Assembly (NCBI RefSeq): GCF_024218775.1
Contig: NZ_CP100405.1
Location: 186,001-250,000, forward strand
Length of the DNA: 64,000 bases
From: Haloarcula marina
GTDB taxonomy: Archaea > Halobacteriota > Halobacteria > Halobacteriales > Haloarculaceae
Reading direction: 5' to 3'
In this document: positions 29,842 through 50,195 of the stretch, one piece after another
How positions within the stretch are numbered: the first letter of the stretch is position 1
Layout of the letters: each line of letters opens with the position of its first letter
Translations under genes and position numbers: made by a program
Notes under the pieces: generated by a model
What the model saw: the letters and a program-made list of their open reading frames with translations, nothing else
What the model was told of the DNA's origin: nothing
The model's database searches: none

Positions 29842-31275
29842 TCAATCAGTAGGTTCAGCCGAATATTCTGTGTTCGTAATAGCACCTCCTCGCCAAGTGC
29901 CGAGTTTGAACCACCAGACAGCGAACAAAAACGACAGGAATCCACCGGTTGCATAAGCCCACCACAGGCCTTCGACCCCCCAATCGAGTGCCGTAACGGT
30001 GAAGGTAGAACCCGGAATGGTGAACGACCACGCGAACGCCAGGACGAGTGCCACCGGAACACGGAGAATCCACCGTGACAGGAGTGAGAGCATCATTGCC
30101 GCTTTCGTTGTCCCCGCACCGCGGAACGCCCCCTGAATCACCATCACTCCACCAAAGAAGGCCCAGAACGGGGCGATAATCCGGAGGAAAACGATTCCCT
30201 CTGTGATCACTGCAGGGTCGTCGATGAAGAGCCTGATTGCTGCTGCCGGGAAGGTGGTGACGACGCCAGCAATACCGAACAACAGCGCCATCGTTGCGAC
30301 CATCGCTTTCCACGTAACTTCGACCGCGCGCTCCGGCCTGTTCGAACCCAGATTTTGCCCAACACCCGTCGCTGTCGCCTGGCCCACACCACCCGAGATT
30401 GTCCACGTAACGGACATCAACCTGACTCCAACACCGTAGGCAGCAATCGCTGCGACACTGAACTGCGCGACCAGTCCGACCATCACGACGGCGGCGAAAC
30501 TACGCGCCCACCCGTCGATGGTCGCCGGGTATCCGATCGAAACAAGTTGTTTCTGCAGCTCCCAGTCGGGCAGCAACTCACGCGGGTTGAGATTGACGCC
30601 GTACCCGCCACGGAGGAGCAGATAGAGCCCAGCCACAGCAACAAACGCCCGGGACGCGAACGTCGCAATCGCCGCGCCCTGCGTCCCGAGAGCTGGGAAC
30701 GGCCCCCAGCCCAGAATTAGAACTGGGTCGAGTACGACGTTGATGCCTGCAGACAGTACCATCAACCACATCGCCGTCTTCGTATCACCGGCACCTTGCA
30801 GCGAGCCCCGAAACGCGAAAAAGAGGAACGTGAACGGTAAGCTCAGGAAGATGATTTCGATGTACGCCAGCGCCTCGATGTACACCTGACCGCTCGCCCC
30901 GATGGTAGTCAGGATCGATTCCCGGAACAGCAGTCCGAGGGCGCCCAGTACTGTGGCGACAACCGTCGTCAGCAGTGCGGTCTGCGCAACGACTTTATCG
31001 GCCATCGACTGGTTGCCCGCACCGATGTGTTGCGATACCAATGCGATCGTCGCAGCTGTAATTCCCATCGCCGTCGAGATGAACATGAACGAAAGCGGGA
31101 ACATCAGCGAGACGGCTGCGACGGCAGCCCCGCTCACACGGCCCACCCAGAACATATCTGCCAGATTATAGACCGTCTGGAGCAGATTGCCGATTACGAG
31201 TGGCCACGTCAACGTGAACAGTTTCGGGACGATTGAGCCTGTGGTCATGTCCACAGGTGAACTCCGTTGACTCAC
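29842..31275 (-). CDS. MATE-family multidrug/cation antiporter (1)
   Basis: 477 aa, twelve predicted helices, with the usual MATE internal duplication: residues ~15-230 and ~245-450 each start with a PLVIGN/GYPATIDG-type helix. Landmarks are LFTLTWPLVIGNLLQTVYNL, FRGSLQGAGDTKTAMW and the second-half counterpart FRGAGTTKAAMM. It exports drugs or metabolites by Na+ or H+ antiport. Convergent with the FMN reductase and just upstream (same strand) of alpha/beta hydrolase 1's 3' side. Confidence 0.93.
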   Translation of the reverse strand: MSQRSSPVDMTTGSIVPKLFTLTWPLVIGNLLQTVYNLADMFWVGRVSGAAVAAVSLMFPLSFMFISTAMGITAATIALVSQHIGAGNQSMADKVVAQTALLTTVVATVLGALGLLFRESILTTIGASGQVYIEALAYIEIIFLSLPFTFLFFAFRGSLQGAGDTKTAMWLMVLSAGINVVLDPVLILGWGPFPALGTQGAAIATFASRAFVAVAGLYLLLRGGYGVNLNPRELLPDWELQKQLVSIGYPATIDGWARSFAAVVMVGLVAQFSVAAIAAYGVGVRLMSVTWTISGGVGQATATGVGQNLGSNRPERAVEVTWKAMVATMALLFGIAGVVTTFPAAAIRLFIDDPAVITEGIVFLRIIAPFWAFFGGVMVIQGAFRGAGTTKAAMMLSLLSRWILRVPVALVLAFAWSFTIPGSTFTVTALDWGVEGLWWAYATGGFLSFLFAVWWFKLGTWRGGAITNTEYSAEPTD

Positions 31276-31364: not shown

Positions 31365-32348
31365 CTAGAAGAATTCGTGCGGTTCGTCTGCCCCTTCCCC
31401 GTGGTAGAAGTCGAGAAATTCGACAAAGGTGCTGGCGAGTTCACGCGGGTGTTCCATGAAGATCATGTGCCCGCAGTGGTTGATGGTCTTCATCCGGACC
31501 TTGCCGTTGTGCTCGCCGATCATATCGTAGGCTGCAAGGGCCATCACCGGCGGGACCGTCGGGTCGTCCCGGCCGAGGACGTACAGAACCGGCATATCCA
31601 GCACTCCGTCTTTGATTCGCATATGTGTCTCTTTCATATGGGCGTCGAGTGACTCGGTCCACGAGTCGATATAGCCCTCATCGTCCATTATTCTCGCCGT
31701 TTCGAGCGCTTTGTCCCTATTTTCGAGATAGGCACAGATGTTTGTCCGATTTTCAGTGATATACTCCTTCTGATGTGAGTACTGATAGTAGAAGTACTTC
31801 ATGTACTCCGGGTCAGTCTTTTCGAGCCCGAGTTCGTCCTGTTTGAAGATGATATCAAACCGGTGGGCACTGTCTCCCGCGGATGGACCGAGTGTCGCAC
31901 TGTTGCAGATAATGAGGCTGTCGATGCGGTCGGGAATCTCGACGGCTACACGGGTGACGAGTCCGCCACCGCGTGACCAGCCAGCGATATGCGTCGTCTC
32001 CAGGTCGAGTGCGTCGAGAAATCCGATAATGTGGTTGACGTCGGATTCGTAGCGGAAATCCTCTGGATCGTCGGGATTGTCGGTCATCCCACAGCCGATG
32101 CGGTCGACGGCAAGCACCCGGTAATCATCGGCGAGATACTCGAACATTTCAGACCAGGTGTTCGCGTTGCTTGACCCGCTCCAGCCGTTGCCGTGAACTA
32201 ACACGAGTGGTTGGCCGCTACCTACGTCGTAATATCGTGTCTTGATGTCCTCGAGGTGGCCGTGTGACACGTCGACATACTTCGGTTCGTACCCGCCAAT
32301 CGCTGCGTCCGGGTCTACGTCTTCGAATCGTCCAGTTGTTTTGCTCAT
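31365..32348 (-). CDS. Alpha/beta hydrolase (paralogue 1)
   Basis: 327 aa. Oxyanion-hole motif VHGNGWSG (~51-58), nucleophile elbow GWSRGG with Ser125, catalytic Asp candidate in VLGRDDPTVPP and His in NHCGHMIFMEHP. A cap domain with many Tyr (YMKYFYYQYSHQKEY) lies between. There is no signal peptide, so it is cytoplasmic. It is ~89% identical (36 differences by my count) to the product of 43316-44299. The gene lies on the opposite strand from the peptide-type ABC importer that starts ~970 bases away. Confidence 0.92.
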   Translation of the reverse strand: MSKTTGRFEDVDPDAAIGGYEPKYVDVSHGHLEDIKTRYYDVGSGQPLVLVHGNGWSGSSNANTWSEMFEYLADDYRVLAVDRIGCGMTDNPDDPEDFRYESDVNHIIGFLDALDLETTHIAGWSRGGGLVTRVAVEIPDRIDSLIICNSATLGPSAGDSAHRFDIIFKQDELGLEKTDPEYMKYFYYQYSHQKEYITENRTNICAYLENRDKALETARIMDDEGYIDSWTESLDAHMKETHMRIKDGVLDMPVLYVLGRDDPTVPPVMALAAYDMIGEHNGKVRMKTINHCGHMIFMEHPRELASTFVEFLDFYHGEGADEPHEFF

Positions 32349-33321: not shown

Positions 33322-34947
33322 ATGAAATCGAATCGACGGCGTTTTATGAAAAGTATTGGAGCTGCGTCAGTAGCGGGACTATTTGCAGGCTGTTCTGAAA
33401 GTTCGGGCGGAGAGAGTGACCAGGGTTCGAGTGAGGAGAGTGACCAGAGTTCGGGTGGAAATCTATTCCCGAACCGTGAACTCAATCTAGCCGCGCCGAC
33501 GATCAGTAGCGGGGTTATCGATCCGCATCAAACTGGCGCAATCCAGAACAACGCCGCCATCACGATGGCGTACGAACGCCCGATTCTTCGAGGACCTGAG
33601 GGCGATAAGATGCCGGGCCTCGCGACGGACTGGGGACGCGAAGAACCTGGCCGGTTCCGGTTCCAGATCCGTGAGGGCGTCACGTTCCATAACGGGGACG
33701 AAATGACCGCTGAGGACTGGGAGTACAGCGTCGCCCGGATTCAGGACCCTGACGTACACGTAACCAGTGCGCTACAGGGTAATCTTCCCGGCGTGACTGG
33801 AACGGAGATCATCGACGACTACACCATCGACATCCTCTCGGATGGGACCAACTCGTTCGTCGAGAACGCGTGCGCTCACTTCCTTGGACTGTCGATCGTC
33901 AACAAATCGTGGACGCAAGAACGGAGTCCTGACGAGACGGCGGTCCAGTCGAACGGGACTGGGCCGATGCAGCTTGTCAACCACAACCCGGGGAACGACG
34001 CGACGTACGAGCCCTACGAAGACTACTGGGGCGAGTTGCCAGAGTGGGCTTCCGAAGTCGATACGGTCACAGTCGACTGGATCGCGGAGGATTCGACGCG
34101 GGTCTCTGGACTCCGCGCGAACGAGTACCAGATTGCGGAATCCGTGCCACCGACGGAGGTTCCGGCAATCAACCAGAACGAGGACCTCGGGATCAGCACC
34201 TCCCCGACATCCAGGGTGCTGAAAATCGTGATGGACCAGCGTCAGGAACCGTGGAACGTCTGGGAGATGCGCCACGCGATGAACCTCGCCGTCGACGTCG
34301 ATGGATATATCGAAGACGTGATGGACGGGTTCGCCGTTCGATCTACCCAGCCGACGCTTCCGCAGATGTACGGGTACGACCCGGACATCGAGCCGATTCC
34401 GTACGATCCCGACCGCGCAGATGAACTGATCGAAGAAGCTGGCTACGCTGGGATGGAGCTCGAGCTTACCGTCCCGACCGGCCGGTTCCTGCTGGGCGAA
34501 GAGTTCGGTGTCGCAGTCGCAAACCAGATCGACCAGCTCGAGACAATCTCCTGTGAACCCGACATCGTTCCATACGGCGGCGGCTTCACCGACAAGTGGG
34601 CCCGGTCCCGACCGATGGACCTAGACTTCTTCATCGTCGGATACGGGCACCCATCGTACGACGGCCGAGAAACCATCAACAGCACGCTGATCGACACGAA
34701 TGGACAGAGCCGGTTCGGAGAAAACCCGCGATACGACGAACTGGTGGATCTCTTCGAGGAATCCATCAGCACGCCGCTGGACGAAGCTGAACCCATCGTC
34801 CAGGAGATGAACCGACTTGTCGTCGAGGAGCGAGGGTGGGTGTTCCTCCATGGCCAGCAAGCACTGATCGGATACGATAACGCCCTCGATTATCAGGGCC
34901 GTGAGGACGAGCTACTGACCCCGCTAGACAGCGGTCTCGCGGAATAG
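33322..34947 (+). CDS. ABC transporter substrate-binding lipoprotein (dipeptide/oligopeptide type)
   Basis: 541 aa, SBP family 5 length. N-terminus NRRRFMKSIGAAS with Arg pair and lipobox LFAGC, then a Ser/Gly/Glu-rich linker. Family-5 landmarks: ITMAYERPILRGPEGDKMPG, GVTFHNGDEMTAEDWEYSV, NGTGPMQLVNHNPGNDATYE, PWNVWEMRHAMNLAVD and QEMNRLVVEERGWVFL. It captures the ligand outside the membrane and delivers it to the two permeases encoded next. It heads a five-gene importer operon. Confidence 0.95.
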   Translation: MKSNRRRFMKSIGAASVAGLFAGCSESSGGESDQGSSEESDQSSGGNLFPNRELNLAAPTISSGVIDPHQTGAIQNNAAITMAYERPILRGPEGDKMPGLATDWGREEPGRFRFQIREGVTFHNGDEMTAEDWEYSVARIQDPDVHVTSALQGNLPGVTGTEIIDDYTIDILSDGTNSFVENACAHFLGLSIVNKSWTQERSPDETAVQSNGTGPMQLVNHNPGNDATYEPYEDYWGELPEWASEVDTVTVDWIAEDSTRVSGLRANEYQIAESVPPTEVPAINQNEDLGISTSPTSRVLKIVMDQRQEPWNVWEMRHAMNLAVDVDGYIEDVMDGFAVRSTQPTLPQMYGYDPDIEPIPYDPDRADELIEEAGYAGMELELTVPTGRFLLGEEFGVAVANQIDQLETISCEPDIVPYGGGFTDKWARSRPMDLDFFIVGYGHPSYDGRETINSTLIDTNGQSRFGENPRYDELVDLFEESISTPLDEAEPIVQEMNRLVVEERGWVFLHGQQALIGYDNALDYQGREDELLTPLDSGLAE

Positions 34948-34973: not shown

Positions 34974-35927
34974 ATGAGCAATATATCAGACTTTTTAGTC
35001 AGGCGGGCTGTGCAGGCCGTAGGAGTGATATGGGGGATCGTTACCCTCGTGTTTCTCCTGCGGTTCCTGTCGCCACAGGATCCCGCGTCGCTGGTCGCCC
35101 CACAGGATGCGGATTCAGAACTCATCGAAGCAATCAGACAGGACCTTGGTCTCGACGAACCCATCATCTTCCAGTATCGTGATTACCTTCTGGAACTGGT
35201 TCAGGGCAGCCTGGGGTACTCCTACGCCAGCAAAGTCCAGGTCAATGACCTCGTGGTCAACGCGCTACCTGCGACGCTAGAACTTGCGTTTGCCTCATTG
35301 ATCTTCGCGGTCGCATTGTCCGTGCCGCTGGGGTTGATAAGCGCAAAACGTCGTGGATCCGGTGTCGACTCGATGTCGAATTCGGTCTCGCTGATCGGGC
35401 TCAGCACCCCCAACTTCTGGCTTGGGATCATGCTTATCCTCCTGCTGGCAGTGCAATTCAACATCTTCCCGACCAGTGGGAGAGTCTCACCGACGGAGAG
35501 TCTCTCCCAGTGGGCCGCCCACATGGTCTTGCCGACTGTGACACTTGGTACCTACTTCATGGCGCTCATCTTCCGGATGACGCGTAACAACATCATCGAA
35601 GAGCTGAACAAAGAATACGTCAGGGCAGCCAGAGCAAAAGGGCTCCCCGAGAATATCGTCACGCTCAGATACGTGATGCAAAACAGCATGGCGCCGGTAA
35701 TCACGGTCGCTGGCCTCCAACTGGGCGTGCTAATCGGTGGCTCCGTCGTCGTCGAAGCTGTGTTCAACTGGCCGGGTCTTGGGACGCTGTTCGTCTCGGC
35801 GTTACAGTCTCAGGACTGGCCAATCATGCAGGGGATACTGATCGTCGTCGGCATCGGGTACGTGAGTATCAACATCCTCGTCGATCTGATCAATTCCCGT
35901 CTCGACCCAAGGGTAAATCTGGCATGA
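34974..35927 (+). CDS. ABC importer permease, DppB type
   Basis: 317 aa with six TM helices. The N-terminal first helix plus conserved LVRRAVQ-like start, the LSVPLGLISAKRRGSGVDSM region and the EAA loop (YVRAARAKGLPENIVTLRYV) that contacts the ATPases are all present. It starts 26 bases after the SBP stop and its stop overlaps the next start by four bases. Confidence 0.95.
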   Translation: MSNISDFLVRRAVQAVGVIWGIVTLVFLLRFLSPQDPASLVAPQDADSELIEAIRQDLGLDEPIIFQYRDYLLELVQGSLGYSYASKVQVNDLVVNALPATLELAFASLIFAVALSVPLGLISAKRRGSGVDSMSNSVSLIGLSTPNFWLGIMLILLLAVQFNIFPTSGRVSPTESLSQWAAHMVLPTVTLGTYFMALIFRMTRNNIIEELNKEYVRAARAKGLPENIVTLRYVMQNSMAPVITVAGLQLGVLIGGSVVVEAVFNWPGLGTLFVSALQSQDWPIMQGILIVVGIGYVSINILVDLINSRLDPRVNLA

Positions 35928-36922
35928 TAAAACAACGAACCAAACAGAGCCTGAAGAAGGAACTTTTCCGGAACAAAGCGGCGCTGCTCGGTGTCGTCGT
36001 CTTCAGTATCCTCGTGTTCGCCGCGGTCTTTGCGCCGTTCCTAGCGCCACACGACCCGACAGCACAGTACACCGACAAGACCCACCAGGCGCCGCTTGGG
36101 TTCGGCAGTGTAAGCGAAGAGACGCAACTCGTCGACGGTGAAATTCAGTCCATCGAGCGGGACAACAGCGGGACGGTCACCCACCTGTTCGGCACCGACG
36201 CGAATGGTCGCGATCTGACCTCGCGTGCGCTCTATGGGCTCCGAACGTCGCTGATGGTCGCCGTCACTGCGATGATCCTGTCTGTCGTCGTCGGTTCGAC
36301 GTTCGGACTCACAGCCGGCTACTACGGCGGGAAGGTAGACAGTGGCGCGATGCGGTTCGTCGACGTCATCCTGGCATTCCCGTCACTACTGATGGCGCTG
36401 GCACTGTTCGGAATCATGGGGCCGCTCACGCTCTTCATTCCCGATCCGTTCGCCTATTTGGGTCTGGTCGAAAATCGACCGGACGCGGTCCCGTTCCCCG
36501 GGACGGTAACGCTTGCAATAACGGCGGTAATATGGGTCTGGATCGCTCGAGTCGCCCGTTCAGAAGCAATCTCGGTGAAAAACGAAGAGTACGTTACGGC
36601 TGCGAAGACGATGGGAATGAGTGATTTCGCAATCATTCGGAAACACGTGTTACCGAACAGTCTCACTCCGATCATGGTGCTGGGAACGGTGCAACTTGCC
36701 ACGATAATAATTCTCGAGAGTTCTTTGTCTTTCCTTGGGTTCTCAGGGACGACATTGTCACTTGGGTGGGATATCTCCCTCGGACGGACGTATATCGGCT
36801 CGTCCTGGTGGATATCCTCCGTCCCGGGGCTGTTCATCGTCGCCGCAGTCATGTCGATCAACTTCATCGGTGACTGGTTCAGAGACGCGCTTGACCCCGA
36901 CATCCAGGGAGAGGGGCAATAA
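35924..36922 (+). CDS. ABC importer permease, DppC type
   Basis: 332 aa. N-terminal helix LLGVVVFSILVFAAVFAPFL followed by the DppC hallmark HLFGTDANGRDLTSRALYG and five further helices. The EAA loop is YVTAAKTMGMSDFAIIRKHV. An ~30-residue insert after APHDPTAQ is longer than usual. It overlaps the DppB-type stop (ATGA) and its own stop overlaps the next start. Confidence 0.95.
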   Translation: MIKQRTKQSLKKELFRNKAALLGVVVFSILVFAAVFAPFLAPHDPTAQYTDKTHQAPLGFGSVSEETQLVDGEIQSIERDNSGTVTHLFGTDANGRDLTSRALYGLRTSLMVAVTAMILSVVVGSTFGLTAGYYGGKVDSGAMRFVDVILAFPSLLMALALFGIMGPLTLFIPDPFAYLGLVENRPDAVPFPGTVTLAITAVIWVWIARVARSEAISVKNEEYVTAAKTMGMSDFAIIRKHVLPNSLTPIMVLGTVQLATIIILESSLSFLGFSGTTLSLGWDISLGRTYIGSSWWISSVPGLFIVAAVMSINFIGDWFRDALDPDIQGEGQ

Positions 36923-38115
36923 TGGACAACAAAAAGAAACTATTTAGGGTCCGAGACCTCACCACGAAGTTCTTCACCGAAGAAGGAACGATCAACGCAA
37001 CCGAGAAAGTCAGCTTCGACATCAACCAGGGAGAGATACTCTCCGTCGTCGGGGAGAGCGGGAGCGGCAAGAGTGTGACCGGACGCTCGTTGCTCGGACT
37101 CATCGAGGCACCGGGTGAGATCGTCGACGGCCAGATCTGGTACCGATCCCCCTCGCTGGCCGCAGAGTGTGACAGTGGCGCCGTCGACGGCGAGTACGTC
37201 GATCTACGCGCCGTAGGTGCCGAGACGAGGCAGTCCCTTCTACAGCAGGACTTCAGCATGATCTTCCAAGACCCCGAGGAGAGTTTCAACCACTCGCTGA
37301 CGGTCGGGAGACAGATTGCGGAGGCCGTCGAAGTGAAGCGTCGTGCAGACAGCGGCGACGTGTACGGGAACCTGCAGCTGCTCAAAGACATCCTCAAACC
37401 CGGTGCAAGCTACGTCTCCGAAGAGAGTTACGACCGCGCGATAGAACTGCTAGAACTCGTCGACATCCCGGACCCGACCGCACGTGTCGATGAGTATCCA
37501 CACGAGTTTAGCGGTGGCATGTTGCAGCGAGCGATGATCGCACAGGCACTCGCCTGTGGTCCCGAGTTTCTCGTCGCTGACGAACCGACGACCGGGCTCG
37601 ACGTGACGATTCAATCGGGGATTGTCAATCTGCTCAAGAACCTGCAACACGACCTCGACCTGACTGTCTTACTCATCACGCACAACCTGGGAGTCGTTTC
37701 TCGGCTCGCCAATCGGTCCGCAGTGATGTACGCTGGCGAGTTCTTCGAAGTCGGACCGACGGACTCCGTCATCAACGAGCCGAAAAACCCCTACACGAAG
37801 GGCCTAATCCAGAGCCTCCCGGACATCGACAACCCCAGCGCGCACATCGAACCCATCCCCGGGAATGTCCCGAGTCTGTTAGACTCAGAGATGGGGCCTG
37901 GATGCTCGTTCGCGGACCGGTGTCCGGAGGCGACAGACGAGTGTACCGCCTCACCGCCACCCGTCCGGAGTGTAAACGGCGACGAGGAGTACCGTGTGAT
38001 GTGTGTTCACGCAGGCAACGAAGACAGCGAAATCAACATGTCTAAAGTTCAATCAGACGCGTCCGAAGACCGTGCCGTAGTCGAGCGAAAAGCCCTGGAG
38101 GGAACCAATGAGTAA
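36922..38115 (+). CDS. ABC importer ATPase, DppD type
   Basis: 397 aa. Walker A GESGSGKSV (~residues 46-54), signature FSGGMLQRAM, Walker B FLVADEPTTGLD, and the C-terminal oligopeptide-transporter extension with Fe-S-type cysteines (GPGCSFADRCPEATDECTA). A ~30-residue insert around residues 70-105 (SPSLAAECDSGAVDGEYVDL) and another around 150-175 make it longer than most DppD proteins. Translationally coupled to its neighbours on both sides. Confidence 0.94.
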   Translation: MDNKKKLFRVRDLTTKFFTEEGTINATEKVSFDINQGEILSVVGESGSGKSVTGRSLLGLIEAPGEIVDGQIWYRSPSLAAECDSGAVDGEYVDLRAVGAETRQSLLQQDFSMIFQDPEESFNHSLTVGRQIAEAVEVKRRADSGDVYGNLQLLKDILKPGASYVSEESYDRAIELLELVDIPDPTARVDEYPHEFSGGMLQRAMIAQALACGPEFLVADEPTTGLDVTIQSGIVNLLKNLQHDLDLTVLLITHNLGVVSRLANRSAVMYAGEFFEVGPTDSVINEPKNPYTKGLIQSLPDIDNPSAHIEPIPGNVPSLLDSEMGPGCSFADRCPEATDECTASPPPVRSVNGDEEYRVMCVHAGNEDSEINMSKVQSDASEDRAVVERKALEGTNE

Positions 38116-39499
38116 CGACGTTTCAACGGCGAACGAGGTGGAATCTGTCTCGGAAATCAACACCAACGAAGACCTGTTCGACGACGACGGAGCAATCGCA
38201 GCTGGCGACGACGATCACCGGCAAGGAGACCCCATCCTCGACGTCACCGAGCTAGAGAAACACTACATCGATAAACAGGGGCTTCTGGAGCGAGTCTTCG
38301 CACGTGACTCCGAACCTACTCGGGTCAGAGCCGTCGACGGGGTATCGTTCACCGTCAATCGAGGTGAAACACTCGGTATCGTCGGGGAATCTGGCTGTGG
38401 CAAGTCGACGCTGGCCGAGACGCTGCTTGGACTGAAACAACCGACTGGTGGCAGTGCCTCCCTCTTTGGGAAAGATATCCACGAGTGGGTCGACGTCGAC
38501 CGCAAGCGGTTCGCCAAGCAGATCCAGTTCGTCTTTCAGGACCCCTCGTCGTGTCTCGACCCGAAACTGACCGTCCGAGAGCTCATCCGCGAACCGCTAG
38601 AGATACACAGTATCGGTGACAATGCACACAAGAACCAGCTGGTCCAAGAAGTCATCGAACAGGTCGGACTCTCCGCAGACCAGTTAGACCGCTATCCCAG
38701 CGAGATGTCTGGCGGGCAGCGACAACGTGTCGGCATCGCACGCGCCATTATTCTTAAACCACAGCTGCTGGTTCTCGACGAACCGACCAGTGCGCTCGAC
38801 GTCAGCGTGCAGGCCCAGATCCTGAATCTATTGAAAGAGATTCAGGAGTCGTTCAATCTGACCACGGTCATCATCTCACACGACATCTCAGTCATTCAGT
38901 ACCTGTGTGATACGGTTCTGGTGATGTATCTGGGTCAGATTGCCGAAATCGGTCCAACCGATCGTGTGTTCTCCGAGCCGGCTCACCCGTACACGCAGAC
39001 GCTCTTCGACAGTGTTCCTAAAGTGGGTGTCACCGACGCGGAGCACACCGATATCGATCCGGACATTCCGTCACCACGGGATCCCCCGGACGGGTGTCGC
39101 TTCCACACGCGCTGTCCAGATGTTATTCCGCCCGCGGAGTACGACCTCGAACAGGAAGAATGGCTCGCGGTATTCAAGTACAAACTGGATATCAACTCCG
39201 GAAAACTGACCAGCGAGAAGTTGCGGGAGTTGCGCGACGATCTCGATGTAGACCACGAGGCGCCAATGGAGGAACTCGTCCGGGAGCGGTACGATATTCC
39301 ATCGCCCCTCTCGGATAGTGCTGCAGAAACCGCCCTCGACGAGACTCTGGACTATCTGCTCGATGACGATATCGAGGCCCTTTCGTCCCTGTTAGCCCGA
39401 GCGTTCAGATCCCCATGTGAAGCAACCACTCCCGATTCGATAAGTGTGAGTGAGGATCACATGGCGAACTGCCATCTTGTACTCGAAGATGAAGTATAG
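38108..39499 (+). CDS. ABC importer ATPase, DppF type
   Basis: 463 aa. Walker A GESGCGKST, signature MSGGQRQRVGIA, Walker B LLVLDEPTSALD and a C-terminal cysteine region (DGCRFHTRCPD). An acidic N-terminal extension and a ~140-residue C-terminal extension (YKLDINSGKLTSEKLRELRD and onward, ending CHLVLEDEV) make it longer than typical; the extension is partly charged-helical and ends with further cysteines. It overlaps the DppD-type gene by eight bases. Confidence 0.93.
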   Translation: MSNDVSTANEVESVSEINTNEDLFDDDGAIAAGDDDHRQGDPILDVTELEKHYIDKQGLLERVFARDSEPTRVRAVDGVSFTVNRGETLGIVGESGCGKSTLAETLLGLKQPTGGSASLFGKDIHEWVDVDRKRFAKQIQFVFQDPSSCLDPKLTVRELIREPLEIHSIGDNAHKNQLVQEVIEQVGLSADQLDRYPSEMSGGQRQRVGIARAIILKPQLLVLDEPTSALDVSVQAQILNLLKEIQESFNLTTVIISHDISVIQYLCDTVLVMYLGQIAEIGPTDRVFSEPAHPYTQTLFDSVPKVGVTDAEHTDIDPDIPSPRDPPDGCRFHTRCPDVIPPAEYDLEQEEWLAVFKYKLDINSGKLTSEKLRELRDDLDVDHEAPMEELVRERYDIPSPLSDSAAETALDETLDYLLDDDIEALSSLLARAFRSPCEATTPDSISVSEDHMANCHLVLEDEV

Positions 39500-39624: not shown

Positions 39625-41046
39625 GTGAGTTCTGCGTTCAAGAAGATCCTTTCGAGCAGGCGCTATCGGACCGAAATCCTCGCAAACTGGAAGGATATAC
39701 TCTCGCTGGGGTGGCCAATCTCAGTCCAGACAGCCGTTAGGACTGGCATGCGAACGACGGACCTCGTCGTCGTGGCCATCTTCTCCTCATCCGCCATCGC
39801 CGCAGTCGGTCTGGCAAACCTCTATACACAAATCGCGCTGTTCATCGGTATCGGCCTCGGGACCGGGGGGCTCGCCCTCTCCAGTCAAGATACCGGAAGC
39901 AGAGCCTTCGCAAACCGGGACGAGGCCATCTCGCAAGCGCTGTTGATCGGGTTTCTCATCGGGATCCCGATAGCCGCCGCCGCGCTCTTGTTCAGCGAAT
40001 ACTTCATGCTTGTGTTCGGCGCCCCCGAAGAAGTTGTCACGCTCGGTGGGACGTACCTGGCGATCGTCCTGGGGACGGCCCCGTTTCGAATCCTGACACT
40101 TACCGGTGAAAAGTCGCTCCAAGGAACCGGCGACACGATCACGCCGATGCTTATCCGCGGCGGTTCGAACGTCGTAAACATCGTCGGGACTGTCGGTCTG
40201 GGTCTTGGTATCGGCTTTCTACCCCGACTGGAGGTCCTCGGCGTGGCAATTGCGACCGGCGTCGCAAACGTGCTGGCTGGTGTCGCAGTCATCGTCGTCT
40301 TCCTGAGCGCACGCACCGACGTTCGGCTGGCGCTTCCCAAAGACATCAGAATCGCGAAACAACTCCTGAAAATTAGCGCCCCCCGAACCGTCCAGGGATT
40401 GTCTAGGACCGCAGCCACCTTCCCGCTGAACATAATCCTGGTCGCCTTCAGCGTCGAGGCCTATGCGGCCTACACCGTGGGCCGACGTGTGTTCCAGCAG
40501 GTCACTGGCCCGATTGCCCGTAGTGCAAACGTCGTCGCCAGTATCATCACCGGTCAGGATCTTGGCAAGGACGGCAGTAACATCGACTCGAGTACCGAAC
40601 TTCGGGCCAGACTGTTCGCGCTCGCACTGTTGAGCGCCATTGCGATTTCGCTCCTCGGAGCGGTGATGTTTCTGGGGAACAACACACTGGCGAGCTTTTT
40701 CGGCGACGACGAAGCGACCAGGGCGCTCACGAACAACTTTATTCGCGCGTTCGCGTTATCTGCGCCCGCTGCCGGACTTGCCCGAGTGTACGCTGGCGTC
40801 CTCCAGGGGAGCGGCGAGACGATGAAACCCTTCATCGCCGAACTGATCGGTAATTTCGGCATGCTGCTGGGTATTACGTACGTCGGTGGCGTCCTGTTGG
40901 GGTACGGGGTCGTCGCGGTGTACGTCGCAGTCGTCGCATACGGCATCTGTAGATTCGGGCTGGTGTTCACCTGGTACCAGCAAGACAACTGGGTGAAAGA
41001 AGCGTTCGATCGAATGGAAGACAGGGGGAGCATCGCTGACAATTAA
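39625..41046 (+). CDS. MATE-family antiporter (2)
   Basis: 473 aa, GTG start, twelve helices in two halves (ILSLGWPISVQTAVRTGMRT; GVLQGSGETMKPFIAELIGN). It carries the MATE pair GEKSLQGTGDTITPM and GVLQGSGETMKPF. It follows the importer operon on the same strand after 125 bases and may export a degradation product. A C-terminal fragment of a related MATE protein lies at 45777-46020. Confidence 0.92.
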   Translation: MSSAFKKILSSRRYRTEILANWKDILSLGWPISVQTAVRTGMRTTDLVVVAIFSSSAIAAVGLANLYTQIALFIGIGLGTGGLALSSQDTGSRAFANRDEAISQALLIGFLIGIPIAAAALLFSEYFMLVFGAPEEVVTLGGTYLAIVLGTAPFRILTLTGEKSLQGTGDTITPMLIRGGSNVVNIVGTVGLGLGIGFLPRLEVLGVAIATGVANVLAGVAVIVVFLSARTDVRLALPKDIRIAKQLLKISAPRTVQGLSRTAATFPLNIILVAFSVEAYAAYTVGRRVFQQVTGPIARSANVVASIITGQDLGKDGSNIDSSTELRARLFALALLSAIAISLLGAVMFLGNNTLASFFGDDEATRALTNNFIRAFALSAPAAGLARVYAGVLQGSGETMKPFIAELIGNFGMLLGITYVGGVLLGYGVVAVYVAVVAYGICRFGLVFTWYQQDNWVKEAFDRMEDRGSIADN

Positions 41047-41198: not shown

Positions 41199-41217
41199 AA
41201 CGAGTTTAGTGATTCAT

Positions 41218-42303
41218 ATGGTTGGTAATTCCTCGAATAGGTTGTGGTTTTTATCAGAAAAAGACATACTAGACACTGATTGTTTAGATATGTCTGGCTG
41301 TATCGAGATGATGGAGTACGTCTTCGAGCTCTACAATCAGAATCAGGTCATAATGGGTGAATCCGGCCAGTATCTACACGGCCACATGACGACGTTTCCG
41401 AGCAATCTGTCCGACGAGCAAGCGGCGACCGTCGAAGACGGGAGCCGATTCGGCGCGATGCCCGCATACGTCGGCGGGGACATCGACATGGTCGGTGTCA
41501 AGTGGTACGGTGCTGTGCCATCGAGTACGGTCTACTCACGCCCACTATTGACCCTGAGCGACCCAGCCGACGGGCGTCCAGTCGCGATTCTCGACGGCTC
41601 GGTCATCAGCACGATGCGAACGGGAGCGATGGTCGGGTTGGGGGCCGCCACGCTGCAAAAGCACAACGCTGAGACGGTTGCGATACTCGGGCCCGGAAAA
41701 ACGGGACAGGCAGCCGCGATCGGCGTCGATACTGCACTCGACTCGGTCGAAAAGACATACGTCGTCCATCCGGAGCAAAACAAGGCAGCAGCCTTCACGG
41801 ACGCCATGCAAGAGCGCGTGTCCTTCGAACTCGTCCCGACCTCGTCAGTGAATACGGCCGTGCAACGGTCGGAGATCGTCGTCTCGACGGCGACACCGAG
41901 TCCAGCCCCAGAAATCGAACCCGAATGGCTGCGCGACGACTCGACCGTCGTCCAGATCGGTGACCTGAAAGTCCCTCTGGACGCGTTCGATCACGAGCAG
42001 ATATTCTGTGATATCTCGTCTCATCCGTTTGAATTCGAGGAGCAAATCGGCTGGGAGATCACACGTCAGTTTACGACCCACTATGGCGAGAACAGGGCCG
42101 AGAAATCCGACATCCGAACACTCCACGAACTGATCGGCGGTGACGACACCGGGCCGACCAGCGGGAAATCGTTCCTGTCGTCGCTCGGCCTTCCGATGGA
42201 AGACGTAGCGTGGGGCACTGCAGTGCTGCGGACCGCCCTCGAAAAGAATCTCGGCACCCCTCTCGATCTCTCCACCCAGTCGCCGTTTTCCAGACCATAC
42301 TAA
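41218..42303 (+). CDS. Ornithine cyclodeaminase / mu-crystallin family protein
   Basis: 361 aa (MVGNSSNRLW). The Rossmann core is VAILGPGKTGQAAAIGVDTA (~residues 155-174), preceded by the dimer/substrate region with MVGVKWYGAVPSST and DGSVISTMRTGA (the K-W and R-T-G-A motifs of the family). It has longer N- and C-terminal parts than typical OCD proteins. Members reduce ketimines, deaminate ornithine or act as alanine dehydrogenases; some longer ones are annotated as tyramine oxidase subunit B. It probably handles an imino or amino acid released in this island. Confidence 0.88.
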   Translation: MVGNSSNRLWFLSEKDILDTDCLDMSGCIEMMEYVFELYNQNQVIMGESGQYLHGHMTTFPSNLSDEQAATVEDGSRFGAMPAYVGGDIDMVGVKWYGAVPSSTVYSRPLLTLSDPADGRPVAILDGSVISTMRTGAMVGLGAATLQKHNAETVAILGPGKTGQAAAIGVDTALDSVEKTYVVHPEQNKAAAFTDAMQERVSFELVPTSSVNTAVQRSEIVVSTATPSPAPEIEPEWLRDDSTVVQIGDLKVPLDAFDHEQIFCDISSHPFEFEEQIGWEITRQFTTHYGENRAEKSDIRTLHELIGGDDTGPTSGKSFLSSLGLPMEDVAWGTAVLRTALEKNLGTPLDLSTQSPFSRPY

Positions 42304-42542: not shown

Positions 42543-43283
42543 ATGAGTGAAGACTCATCGTACGAGAGTTACGTTCCGGACGTAGTGCCAGAAGAAGACC
42601 TTGCCCAGTTCGGCGGGGAAAATCTAGACTCGATCGGTTCGTCGATCGGATGGGGTGAGACCGTCGCGGTGTTGGTCATCGACATGACTGACGCCTTTGT
42701 CACCGACGAATATCCGACCGGTCGTGCCGCGACGGGCCAACCTGCCGTCGAAGCCAACGAGAAGTTGCTGGAGACTGCCCGCGATATCGGCCTGCCAGTC
42801 TTCTACACCAAAGGCACCGGATCAGAAATGTATCCCCCCGATTACCAAGGGACGACCAAGTCGGGTTCTAGAGAGAAATCCGAATCCGAGCAGGAGCGAT
42901 GGGACGAGGGGAACGTTATCACCCAGCCACTCGCTCCCGAGGACGGCGACGTCGTGATCGAAAAACCGCGTGCGAGTGCCTTCTTCGACACCCATCTGGC
43001 CAACGTATTGCACTATTATCACATCGACACGGTGATTCTGACCGGGATGACGACCAGTGGGTGTGTCAGGGCCAGTGCTGTCGACGGTCACTCCAGTAAC
43101 TTCCGGATGATCATCCCCCACGAGTGTACCGCTGACCGCTCGATTATCTCCCACGAGATATCGCTGTTCGATATAGATATGAAATATGCGGACGTGCTCT
43201 CGTTAGACGACGTTCTCGAGACGCTCACGACGGAGTACGCCAGCGACGGGCAAGCAGCCGAACTCTCCGCGGCCGACGACTGA
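42543..43283 (+). CDS. Isochorismatase-fold cysteine hydrolase
   Basis: 246 aa. Catalytic Asp in VLVIDMTDAF (~residue 46), Lys in IEKPRASAF (~139) and nucleophile Cys in TGMTTSGCVRASAVD (~174), with the cis-peptide GMTTS before it. Members include N-carbamoylsarcosine amidase, nicotinamidase and other amidases. The surrounding amide-hydrolase genes favour an amidase here. It follows the dehydrogenase gene on the same strand after a 240-base gap with its own AT-rich promoter. Confidence 0.92.
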   Translation: MSEDSSYESYVPDVVPEEDLAQFGGENLDSIGSSIGWGETVAVLVIDMTDAFVTDEYPTGRAATGQPAVEANEKLLETARDIGLPVFYTKGTGSEMYPPDYQGTTKSGSREKSESEQERWDEGNVITQPLAPEDGDVVIEKPRASAFFDTHLANVLHYYHIDTVILTGMTTSGCVRASAVDGHSSNFRMIIPHECTADRSIISHEISLFDIDMKYADVLSLDDVLETLTTEYASDGQAAELSAADD

Positions 43284-43315: not shown

Positions 43316-44299
43316 CTAGAAGAATTCGTGCGGTTCGTCTGCTCCCTCACCGTGATAGATATCGAGGAATTCGACGAACGTGCTGGCGAGTTCGCGCGGG
43401 TGTTCCATGAAAATCATGTGCCCGCACCGGTTGATGGTCTTCATCCGGACCTTGCCGTTGTGCTGGCCGATCATATCGTAGGTGGCAAGGGCCATCACCG
43501 GTGGGACCGTCGGATCGTCTCGGCCGAAGACGTACAGGACCGGCATATCCAGCACCCCGTCTTTGATTCGGCTATGAGTCTCTTTCATATGTTCCTCGAG
43601 TGACTCGGTCCACGGTTCGAGGTATCCTTCCTCATCCATGATCCGCGCTGTCTCACGAGCTTTCTCGGTGGTTTCTAGGTAGGCACAGATGTCGAGACGG
43701 GTATCGGTGATGTACTCCTTCTGATGTGAGTACTGATAGTAGAAGTACTCCATATACTCCGGGTCGGTCTTTTCAAGCCCGAGCTCGTCCTGCTTGAACA
43801 TCACGTCCCGTATGTGGGCATCGTCACCCGCAGCAGGGCCGACCGTCTGGCTGTTACAGATGATGAGGCTGTCGATGCGATCGGGAATCTCGACGGCCAC
43901 ACGGGTGACGAGTCCGCCACCGCGTGACCAGCCAGCGATATGCGTCGTCTCCAGGTCGAGCGCATCGAGGAATCCGATAATGTGGTTGATGTCAGACTCG
44001 TAGCGGAAATCCTCCGGGTTGTCCGGATTGTCGGTCATCCCACAGCCGATGCGGTCAACGGCCAGGACACGGTAGTGGTCGGCGAGATACTCGAACGTCT
44101 CTGTCCAGGTATTCGCGCTGCTGGACCCGCTCCAGTTGTTGCCGTGGACCAACACCAGTGGTTGGCCGCTACCCACGTCGTAATATCGTGTCTTGATGTC
44201 CTCGAGGTGGCCGTGTGACACGTCGACATACTTCGGTTCGTACCCGCCAATCGCTGCGTCCGGGTCTACGTCTTCGAATCGTCCAGTAGTTTTGCTCAT
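43316..44299 (-). CDS. Alpha/beta hydrolase (paralogue 2)
   Basis: 327 aa, same length as the product of 31365-32348, with identical N- and C-termini and the same catalytic set (VHGNNWSG, GWSRGG, FGRDDPTVPP, GHMIFMEHP). Differences cluster in the cap domain (around residues 150-165 and 200-250), i.e. near the substrate pocket. It is convergent with the isochorismatase gene, 33 bases apart. Confidence 0.92.
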   Translation of the reverse strand: MSKTTGRFEDVDPDAAIGGYEPKYVDVSHGHLEDIKTRYYDVGSGQPLVLVHGNNWSGSSSANTWTETFEYLADHYRVLAVDRIGCGMTDNPDNPEDFRYESDINHIIGFLDALDLETTHIAGWSRGGGLVTRVAVEIPDRIDSLIICNSQTVGPAAGDDAHIRDVMFKQDELGLEKTDPEYMEYFYYQYSHQKEYITDTRLDICAYLETTEKARETARIMDEEGYLEPWTESLEEHMKETHSRIKDGVLDMPVLYVFGRDDPTVPPVMALATYDMIGQHNGKVRMKTINRCGHMIFMEHPRELASTFVEFLDIYHGEGADEPHEFF

Positions 44300-44575: not shown

Positions 44576-45595
44576 TCAGTATTCCTCGAAGAACTCCTGC
44601 AGTTCTTCGGGGTCCGCGGTCTCGGTCAGCCCTAACGCGAGGAGAATCCGCGCCTTCTGTGGGCGAAGTGTGTCACCACCGATACCGTAGCCGCCTGGGT
44701 AGTCGGTGACACGTTCCCGACCGATACTGCCGTAGCTGCCGCGCGTACACATTACGACGGGAATCTCGTTCTCGGCGGCGCGTTCGAGCGCGTCGGACTG
44801 GGACGGTCCCGCCGGACTCGCAGCCCCGCCCGTGAGAAACCCTGCGACGACGATCCCGGCCGCATCATCGGCGATCGCGTCGACCATCGCACCCGTATCA
44901 CCCATCGAGGCGTAGACGATGTGGATGTCGGTCAACGGGAATTCTTCGACGGGTGTCTCGACGATGTCGAACACCGTATCAGGTGCGGTCGTCCGGTCGA
45001 CTGATCGGTAGAACGTAATCGGCTGGCCAGGGGTCGCGAGGCCTATCTTCCCGAAGTTCGACGACTGCCATGCGTCGGGGCGCTTGCTTGCCAGCTTTGA
45101 GACATCACGGGAGTGGTGGATCTCGTCGTTCGTGACGAGCATTGTCCCACGCCCGGCGGCATCTGGCGAGGCGGCGGTCCGTACGGCGTCGAACAGGTTC
45201 TTGAACCCGTCCGACCCTGTCGCGTTGATACCTCGCTGTGCAGCCGTCACAACGACGGGCAACTCGGTTTTCAGTGTCAGGTTCAGAAAGTATGCCGTCT
45301 CTTCGGAGGTGTTAGAGCCGTGGGTGACCACGAAACCGTCAGGCGGGTCCTCGCTGTTCGCCTGGATCATAATTTCCTCGTAGGTTTCGTACCAGACTTC
45401 GGGGGTTAGCGATGAGCTCCCGAGTCGAGAGATTCCCGTCGACGTCACCTCGGCAACTTCCGACATCTCGGGCATCTCCTTGGTGAGCGCGTCGGCAGTC
45501 AGGAACCCGTCGGGACTGTCGTAGTCGCCGGTGACGTTGGCAATGGTTCCGCCAGTCGCGACGATATGTACGTGTGGTTTCTCCTGTGTACTCAT
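44576..45595 (-). CDS. Asparaginase-like amidohydrolase with altered active site
   Basis: 339 aa, type II length but no signal peptide. First motif ATGGTIAN with Thr14. The second motif reads VVTHGSNTSEETAYFLNLT: the catalytic pair equivalent to Thr89-Asp90 of E. coli AnsB is Ser94-Asn95. The substrate-binding GSQ is GSS (RLGSSSLTPEVW). The catalytic Lys is kept (DVSK, Lys167). The fold is therefore asparaginase but the substrate is probably not L-asparagine. Same strand as hydrolase 2, ~275 bases upstream of it. Confidence 0.88.
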   Translation of the reverse strand: MSTQEKPHVHIVATGGTIANVTGDYDSPDGFLTADALTKEMPEMSEVAEVTSTGISRLGSSSLTPEVWYETYEEIMIQANSEDPPDGFVVTHGSNTSEETAYFLNLTLKTELPVVVTAAQRGINATGSDGFKNLFDAVRTAASPDAAGRGTMLVTNDEIHHSRDVSKLASKRPDAWQSSNFGKIGLATPGQPITFYRSVDRTTAPDTVFDIVETPVEEFPLTDIHIVYASMGDTGAMVDAIADDAAGIVVAGFLTGGAASPAGPSQSDALERAAENEIPVVMCTRGSYGSIGRERVTDYPGGYGIGGDTLRPQKARILLALGLTETADPEELQEFFEEY

Positions 45596-49208: not shown

Positions 49209-50195
49209 ATGTAAAGTACGGTGTGGGCCGCTCCGGAGTTCCGTGGGGTCACCTGTGGGCGGGTGCCAGGATTCGCCCCGTCTCTCGATACAGGATGTGA
49301 ACGATAGGTAATTCGGGGCCGCGCAACTGGCAATCTGCTGCCGTTTCGACTGCCCACTGCGTTCCCCTCAACAGGGTACTGTCTGCGGCCGTGTGGCGTA
49401 TTCCATCTCGGCTCTCGCGATTCCCGTACTGTGCCCGGAACCAGGCGTCTAACAGCGGAAGCGGTGGGGTGGGTGGCACAAACGAGACACCGTTTCAGTC
49501 GTGGATCCGGTAGAACGTGTCTTACCTCACCTCGTACTGGGCCTTCGATGCGAACTTCTGGAGATGTATGGTAGAGGACATTCTTGACATTTTTAGAGAT
49601 AGATTTCAACTCTCAATTTTAGATAAATCTTTATTTCTGCTTTAAGTATGGATTTCTGTTTTTAGTGGTGGGTATAATGCCCAATATTGATATATATTTC
49701 TAGACATTCACTATTCCGACAGAGATGAAGAGTAATAGTCAGCTTATGTGGATAAATAGAATCGAATTCGAACATCGGCAGCAAGTATGCAGCCTTCTGC
49801 TCAAACCACGCTGTTTCGAGCGAACGGTGGAGTTAGTGTGGGCAGCTGGCGGAACCACCACGGGGACCATCGTGACTTTTCGTACCCTTTGACATCGAGC
49901 GAGTCGTCCGCGAGTGATTCGAGTGGATTGCTTAGTCACCTAATTCTATTAAACAAAATAGCAATACGATATAGCTATATCATATAGCTATACTAAATGG
50001 CCACTCTTTTCCACTGGCTTTAGCAGCCAGGTATCCTGGTCAATTCCATCGTTTCAGGACAGTCTATCGGGTTTCAGCCGCTGAGGTGCCCCGTTTAGGA
50101 AGCGGTAGGGATCTTGGTACCTATTCCTCGTAACTATCTCTCCCCGTCTGCACGACGGCAAAAACTTTGCACGTGGGCGACCAATTCCTTTGACA
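49209..50195. other. Long non-coding region, GC-rich then AT-rich
   Basis: ~990 bases without a convincing gene. The first half is GC-rich with short open frames on the minus strand (one reads TLLRGTQWAVETAADCQLRG) that may be a decayed gene. The second half (49570-50000) is AT-rich and contains the palindrome at 49970-49992. The stretch before 50196 should hold the promoter of the mutase gene. Confidence 0.5.
49970..49992. repeat. Perfect AT-rich palindrome (11-bp arms)
   Basis: The arm TATAGCTATAT is followed by one C and its exact reverse complement ATATAGCTATA. It lies in AT-rich DNA ~200 bases upstream of the mutase gene. It may be an operator or simply low-complexity DNA. Confidence 0.6.

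Follow-up and report, generated by a model that had tools for sequence, protein, structure and literature searches.

The closest described systems are the type II L-asparaginases (class 1; AnsB and the Wolinella enzymes 5k4g/1wsa). In the accepted scheme for the E. coli enzyme EcAII (PMC8256714), Thr12 is the nucleophile and Tyr25 the proton conveyor; Asp90 and the substrate α-carboxylate act jointly as proton sink, ammonia release and water activation fall to Thr89 and Lys162, and an Ala has a role in the oxyanion hole. The Asp is counted there among the five crucial residues of therapeutic asparaginases, as the general base, or proton sink, of the first catalytic step. In the H. pylori enzyme (PMC4496674), Gln63, Asn255 and Glu289 cluster near the substrate, the last being the conserved Glu of the other subunit, and the E289A replacement cuts kcat 40-fold.

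We analyzed a stretch of DNA of 64,000 nucleotides (the window), for which an earlier note had described an asparaginase-like gene with Ser-Asn in place of the catalytic Thr-Asp. The gene belongs to a plasmid-borne cluster that looks suited to taking up and breaking down some nitrogen compound. As its relatives share the Asp-to-Asn replacement, sequence comparison suggests that the protein is probably a functional amidase whose substrate is not asparagine.

Residues Retained and Replaced in the Asparaginase-Like Protein

The gene (44576-45595, minus strand, ATG start) encodes a full-length asparaginase-fold protein of 339 amino acids. It belongs to the Pfam families Asparaginase (PF00710, 161.6 bits) and Asparaginase_C (PF17763, 73.8 bits), both curated cut-offs being exceeded. 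Among solved structures, the Wolinella asparaginase 5k4g matches best (E-value 4.7e-53, end-to-end alignment), and the nearest relatives, aligned over the whole length, are type II enzymes from Wolinella and E. coli. A structure predicted from a three-row alignment gave a poor model (mean pLDDT 53). The only other PF00710 protein of this genome is GatD (L001); a gene of the Ntn-type asparaginase family is present as a separate copy on another contig.

The translation contains the motifs ATGGTIAN (Thr17, codon 45545-45547), LGSSSL (Ser60-Ser61, 45413-45418), THGSNTSEE (Ser94-Asn95, 45311-45316), TAAQR, and SRDVSK (Lys167, 45095-45097, the catalytic Lys equivalent), all coordinates referring to the minus strand. 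Thr17 is the counterpart of the nucleophile Thr12 of E. coli AnsB (PMC8256714). The change from HGTDT to HGSNT is borne out both by the codons tct aac at 45316-45311 and by the alignment with asparaginases.

For the family comparison, 59 non-redundant asparaginase-family sequences were aligned. The second catalytic pair is Thr-Asp in 41, Ser-Asp in 1, Ser-Asn in 13, Thr-Ala in 3 and Thr-Gly in 1. Asn95 is thus found in 13 of the 59 sequences and in none of the 46 others, Ser and Asn always occurring together. Thr17 is invariant in all 13 Ser-Asn members (the others have T in 44 and S in 2 cases, n = 46), and Lys167 is K in 59/59 rows, in agreement with the earlier statement that the first Thr and the Lys remain. 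A Ser instead of the second Thr also occurs with the Asp kept (HGSDT in L003); by this comparison the noteworthy substitution is Asp to Asn, not Thr to Ser.

Seven residues are invariant in the Ser-Asn clade, whereas 0-2% of the remaining family members have them: N20, S94, N95, A118, W176, T255 and G286. N20 sits after the nucleophile loop. A118 is the residue before the Ala that helps to form the oxyanion hole; T255 is at the site of the Asn contributed by the neighboring subunit, and G286 lies at the Ser-Arg motif that follows this site. The GSS in place of GSQ, although present as earlier reported, is not special. Ser60 is conserved, and Ser61 occupies the Gln59-equivalent site, which has Gln in 3/13 Ser-Asn sequences and 2/46 others; clade members carry G, S, Q or H there, and non-members E, F, P, D, S, Q, A or T. 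Since this site varies across the family, we regard the difference as ordinary variation and give it no weight.

In the alignment, the flexible loop is shortened in the Ser-Asn clade, and the position of its Tyr is not constant there. No Glu of the variable loop is conserved across the clade, but this loop aligns poorly and with gaps, so that the loss of the Glu in the asparaginase-like protein is not certain. Compared with the H. pylori enzyme, the clade is altered at the Gln63 and Asn255 sites, and the Glu289 site, in the gapped loop, is not conserved.

Distribution and Descent of the Ser-Asn Form

Besides the protein of the window, the 13 Ser-Asn members comprise one from G077 (75-76% identity), one each from G283 and G309, one from a plasmid of the alphaproteobacterium Palleronia, and two paralogs apiece from G036, G052, G066 and G076, which are small genomes related to one another. 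At an E-value threshold of 1e-40, hits were obtained in 9 of 392 genomes of the order, eight of them Ser-Asn and one (G159) HGTDT; at 1e-60, 3 of 146 family genomes gave hits. A scan of contigs for relatives returned one distant relative. No Ser-Asn form was found in the Bacteroidota sample (296 genomes, 7 of them with a total of 8 hits) or in the phylum sample (4 methanogen hits). All of these hits were HGTDT, which argues against a wide spread of the Ser-Asn form; its bacterial spread is known from plasmid records only.

The 11 complete Ser-Asn rows, 10 haloarchaeal and 1 alphaproteobacterial, form one clade with support 99/95 in a tree of 39 rows from which the motif columns had been removed. 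This tree was made from the 59 rows after leaving out 17 near-identical GatD rows, two truncated Ser-Asn rows (L006 and L043) and L076. A second tree, built from 29 rows (22 from the original 59 plus three new plasmid rows and 4 of the 8 from Bacteroidota), gave 99/96. A sister relationship of the Ser-Asn and Thr-Ala groups, weakly supported at 93/85 in the 39-row tree, was lost once further rows had been added in the 29-row tree. For G052 and G066, the sole unsaturated pair of asparaginase-like genes, dN/dS is 0.071; between the gene of the window and that of G077, dN is 0.177 and dS is saturated. The Ser-Asn form is old, selected and of single origin, and no recent mutation.

The gene is haloarchaeal and here plasmid-borne. 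A 100% identical protein, annotated as 'asparaginase', is encoded on the Haloarcula marina plasmid NZ_CP100408.1, and positions 24570-49563 of the window are 99.5% identical to this plasmid (strain YSSS71), with divergence beyond 49563. At 49563-50119, the window is without about 15.6 kb that are present in NZ_CP100408.1 (L057, 461-16033); this extra DNA carries IclR, ABC importer, leuC/leuD and FAH-family genes.

Gene Neighborhood and Partner Hydrolase

In the window, a copy of an alpha/beta hydrolase gene (copy 2, 31365-32348, minus strand) is followed on the plus strand by a family 5 solute-binding protein of an Opp-type importer (33322-34947), the corresponding two permeases and two ATPases (34974-39499, four ORFs in B-C-D-F order), a MATE transporter (39625-41046), a protein of the ornithine cyclodeaminase/mu-crystallin (OCD) family, of ketimine reductase or cyclodeaminase type (41209-42303), and an isochorismatase-fold cysteine hydrolase (42543-43283). 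Then come, on the minus strand, copy 1 of the alpha/beta hydrolase (43316-44299) and the asparaginase-like gene. The cysteine hydrolase, termed partner below, has its closest matches in a solved isochorismatase-family hydrolase and in N-carbamoylsarcosine amidohydrolases; its Asp47, Lys141 and Cys174 are invariant in 4 rows, and dN/dS for the pair from G052 and G066 is 0.051.

Several other features of the region were recorded. The two alpha/beta hydrolase copies (89% protein and about 88% DNA identity, direct orientation) flank the block of transporter, OCD and isochorismatase-fold genes and could permit recombination across about 12 kb. A cytochrome P450 (26923-28290) lies upstream of the cassette, and there is a second MATE gene at 29842-31275 (minus strand).

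The partner neighbors the asparaginase-like gene in all six core-subclade genomes, in three arrangements: tandem, divergent, or split by the alpha/beta hydrolase. In G077, an alpha/beta hydrolase gene leads into the five Opp genes; MATE, the asparaginase-like gene and the isochorismatase-fold gene come next, in this order, before the contig ends. The Opp-MATE-hydrolase cassette of the window is retained there at 64-76% identity, and a cassette of Opp transporter, MATE and alpha/beta hydrolase genes around both genes is seen in two genomes. In G052, G066, G076 and G036, the two genes are head to head, and no importer gene like that of the window was found within 6 to 20 kb around the pair. In two of the eight Ser-Asn genomes (G283 and G309), the asparaginase-like gene is away from the partner, which is also not nearby for the Palleronia gene and the second f2/g6 paralogs.

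Close members of the partner family (E-value 1e-53 or better) were found in 13 of 392 genomes of the order, six with a Ser-Asn asparaginase-like gene and seven without any. Presence of the partner in 6/8 Ser-Asn genomes versus 13/392 overall has a hypergeometric probability of 1e-8, a value that treats related genomes as if they were independent, which they are not; counted by genus, the numbers are 3/5 versus 10/95 (0.008). The asparaginase-like gene is linked with both a solute importer and another amidohydrolase.

An ordinary L-asparaginase or glutaminase-asparaginase that tolerates Ser-Asn, with the substrate carboxylate or some other group as base, would explain the full-length fold, the retained Thr17, Ser60 and Lys167, and the lack of any other PF00710 protein besides GatD in the genome. 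We consider it rather unlikely, as the clade has fixed seven changes, several of them at active-site motifs, the score with the type II model TIGR00520 is 243.9 bits (cut-off 314.3), and the gene is linked with another amidohydrolase and with an importer of Opp type, not one for amino acids.

It is improbable that the asparaginase-like protein and the partner act in separate pathways and merely share a mobile island. The Ser-Asn gene is indeed sporadic (8/392 genomes of the order) and plasmid-borne here, and in G376 and G200 the partner lies with Opp and MATE genes while no asparaginase-like gene occurs in the 20 kb examined, but adjacency has been kept in three arrangements and two families.

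In G376, a RidA-family protein and a nucleoside hydrolase are also beside the partner. In G246, four paralogs of the partner lie within 40 kb of contig 91 (L113-L115) together with TRAP, Opp, luciferase-like, UbiD and molybdenum hydroxylase genes, in what looks like a large catabolic island of a haloarchaeon; one of them comes after an OCD gene, and UbiD, flavoprotein and molybdenum hydroxylase genes are found in that region. We infer that an OCD reductase or RidA beside the partner would suit an enamine or imine product. A pyrimidine (Rut-like) pathway was also considered and is unproven: the partner and the alpha/beta hydrolase match the RutB and RutD models far below the cut-offs, and no RutA-like gene was found among the ORFs tested in the window.

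Proposed Activity

According to the earlier note, the Asp of asparaginases binds the substrate amino group. This understates a role that, in PMC8256714, is mainly that of general base and proton sink, and the Asp-to-Asn change therefore touches catalysis as well as amine binding. As the same scheme calls the Asp crucial, the Asn may even abolish hydrolysis. A binding or regulatory protein, or a relic, is nevertheless improbable, because, even though the Asp and Tyr among the five crucial residues (PMC8256714) are changed or not positionally conserved and one Thr is Ser, the nucleophile and the Lys are fixed in all 13 Ser-Asn members, purifying selection is strong, and linkage to an intact cysteine hydrolase is long-term.

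From the residues, clade, purifying selection and conserved linkage that were observed, we propose an activity, a substrate class and an order of steps. Tentatively, and with guarded confidence, we favor a working, specialized amidohydrolase that would be derived from type II asparaginases and act on an imported amide without free α-ammonium group. Going by the kept residues and the EcAII scheme, Thr17 would attack the side-chain amide carbonyl to form an acyl-enzyme, and Ser94 and Lys167 would protonate the leaving group and activate water, so that a carboxylic acid is released. The pocket would be neutral where asparaginases hold the α-ammonium, because the Asp is Asn and neighboring amine-contact sites are changed, and the proton sink would be the substrate's own carboxylate instead of an enzyme Asp. 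Among the options, a substrate without α-ammonium and with its own carboxylate as sink appears to fit the residue changes best. Likely candidates would be small amides, for instance half-amides or amino-acid amides bearing an N-acyl or N-carbamoyl group, which the Opp-type importer may take up and which may be processed jointly with the N-carbamoylsarcosine-amidase-like partner.

The earlier suggestion of a different amide is thus a fair inference from the linkage to the importer and the partner hydrolase, from the amine-site changes and from a clade-conserved residue under purifying selection; strengthened by clade and linkage, it is plausible. Given the role of the Asp, a loss of activity must also be considered. 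A natural, selected lineage without the Asp would offer a direct test of whether the proton-sink mechanism is required or replaceable, and would show how the asparaginase fold acquires new amide substrates. The public-record label 'asparaginase' for Ser-Asn proteins is probably misleading.

Comparison with Known Systems

No characterized member of the Ser-Asn clade was found, and searches of open-licence PMC papers turned up no mention of the clade, of an HGSNT or of a D90N asparaginase. The protein resembles type II L-asparaginases in its full-length two-domain fold, the nucleophile Thr, the Ser of the GSQ motif and the catalytic Lys. It differs in having Ser-Asn for Thr-Asp, Ala118 for the Gly of the GAMR motif, Thr255 for the Asn of the other subunit, and a shorter flexible loop without positionally conserved Tyr. 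From the type II catalytic set of Thr, Tyr, Thr, Asp and Lys, it keeps Thr17 and Lys167, Ser94 and Asn95 are changed, and the Tyr is unfixed in the clade; the TIGR00520 cut-off is not reached. GatD, present in the same genome, shares the asparaginase fold, but keeps HGTDT and forms a distinct clade, and the GatD models NF003217 and TIGR02153 give 98 bits, against cut-offs of 310 and 324.

Thr-Ala or Thr-Gly proteins of proteobacterial plasmids (L060, L062, L066, L067, L129 and L130) likewise lack the catalytic Asp, but retain the second-site Thr and a Gly at position 118. Two of these genes lie near amide- or ring-opening enzymes (isochorismatase/amidase/nitrilase in one case, hydantoinase A/B in the other) and one adjoins a Rieske protein, whereas L062, L066 and L067 are without such catabolic neighbors. 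Plasmid 'asparaginases' of this kind are L130:5974-6978 (THGTGT), which immediately follows hydantoinase A/B genes in Agrobacterium leguminum, and L129:5995-6987 (THGTAS). It is possible, if doubtful, that the class-1 asparaginase fold has repeatedly shed its general-base Asp (to Asn here, to Ala or Gly in proteobacteria) and so given rise to amidases that do not require an α-ammonium and act on amides derived from ureides, imides or N-heterocycles. Attractive as it is, the idea of repeated Asp loss, with a switch of substrate on each occasion, is unproven. The haloarchaeal Ser-Asn clade would then be one such case, its enzyme and the carbamoylsarcosine-amidase-like partner acting together on a compound that the Opp system imports.
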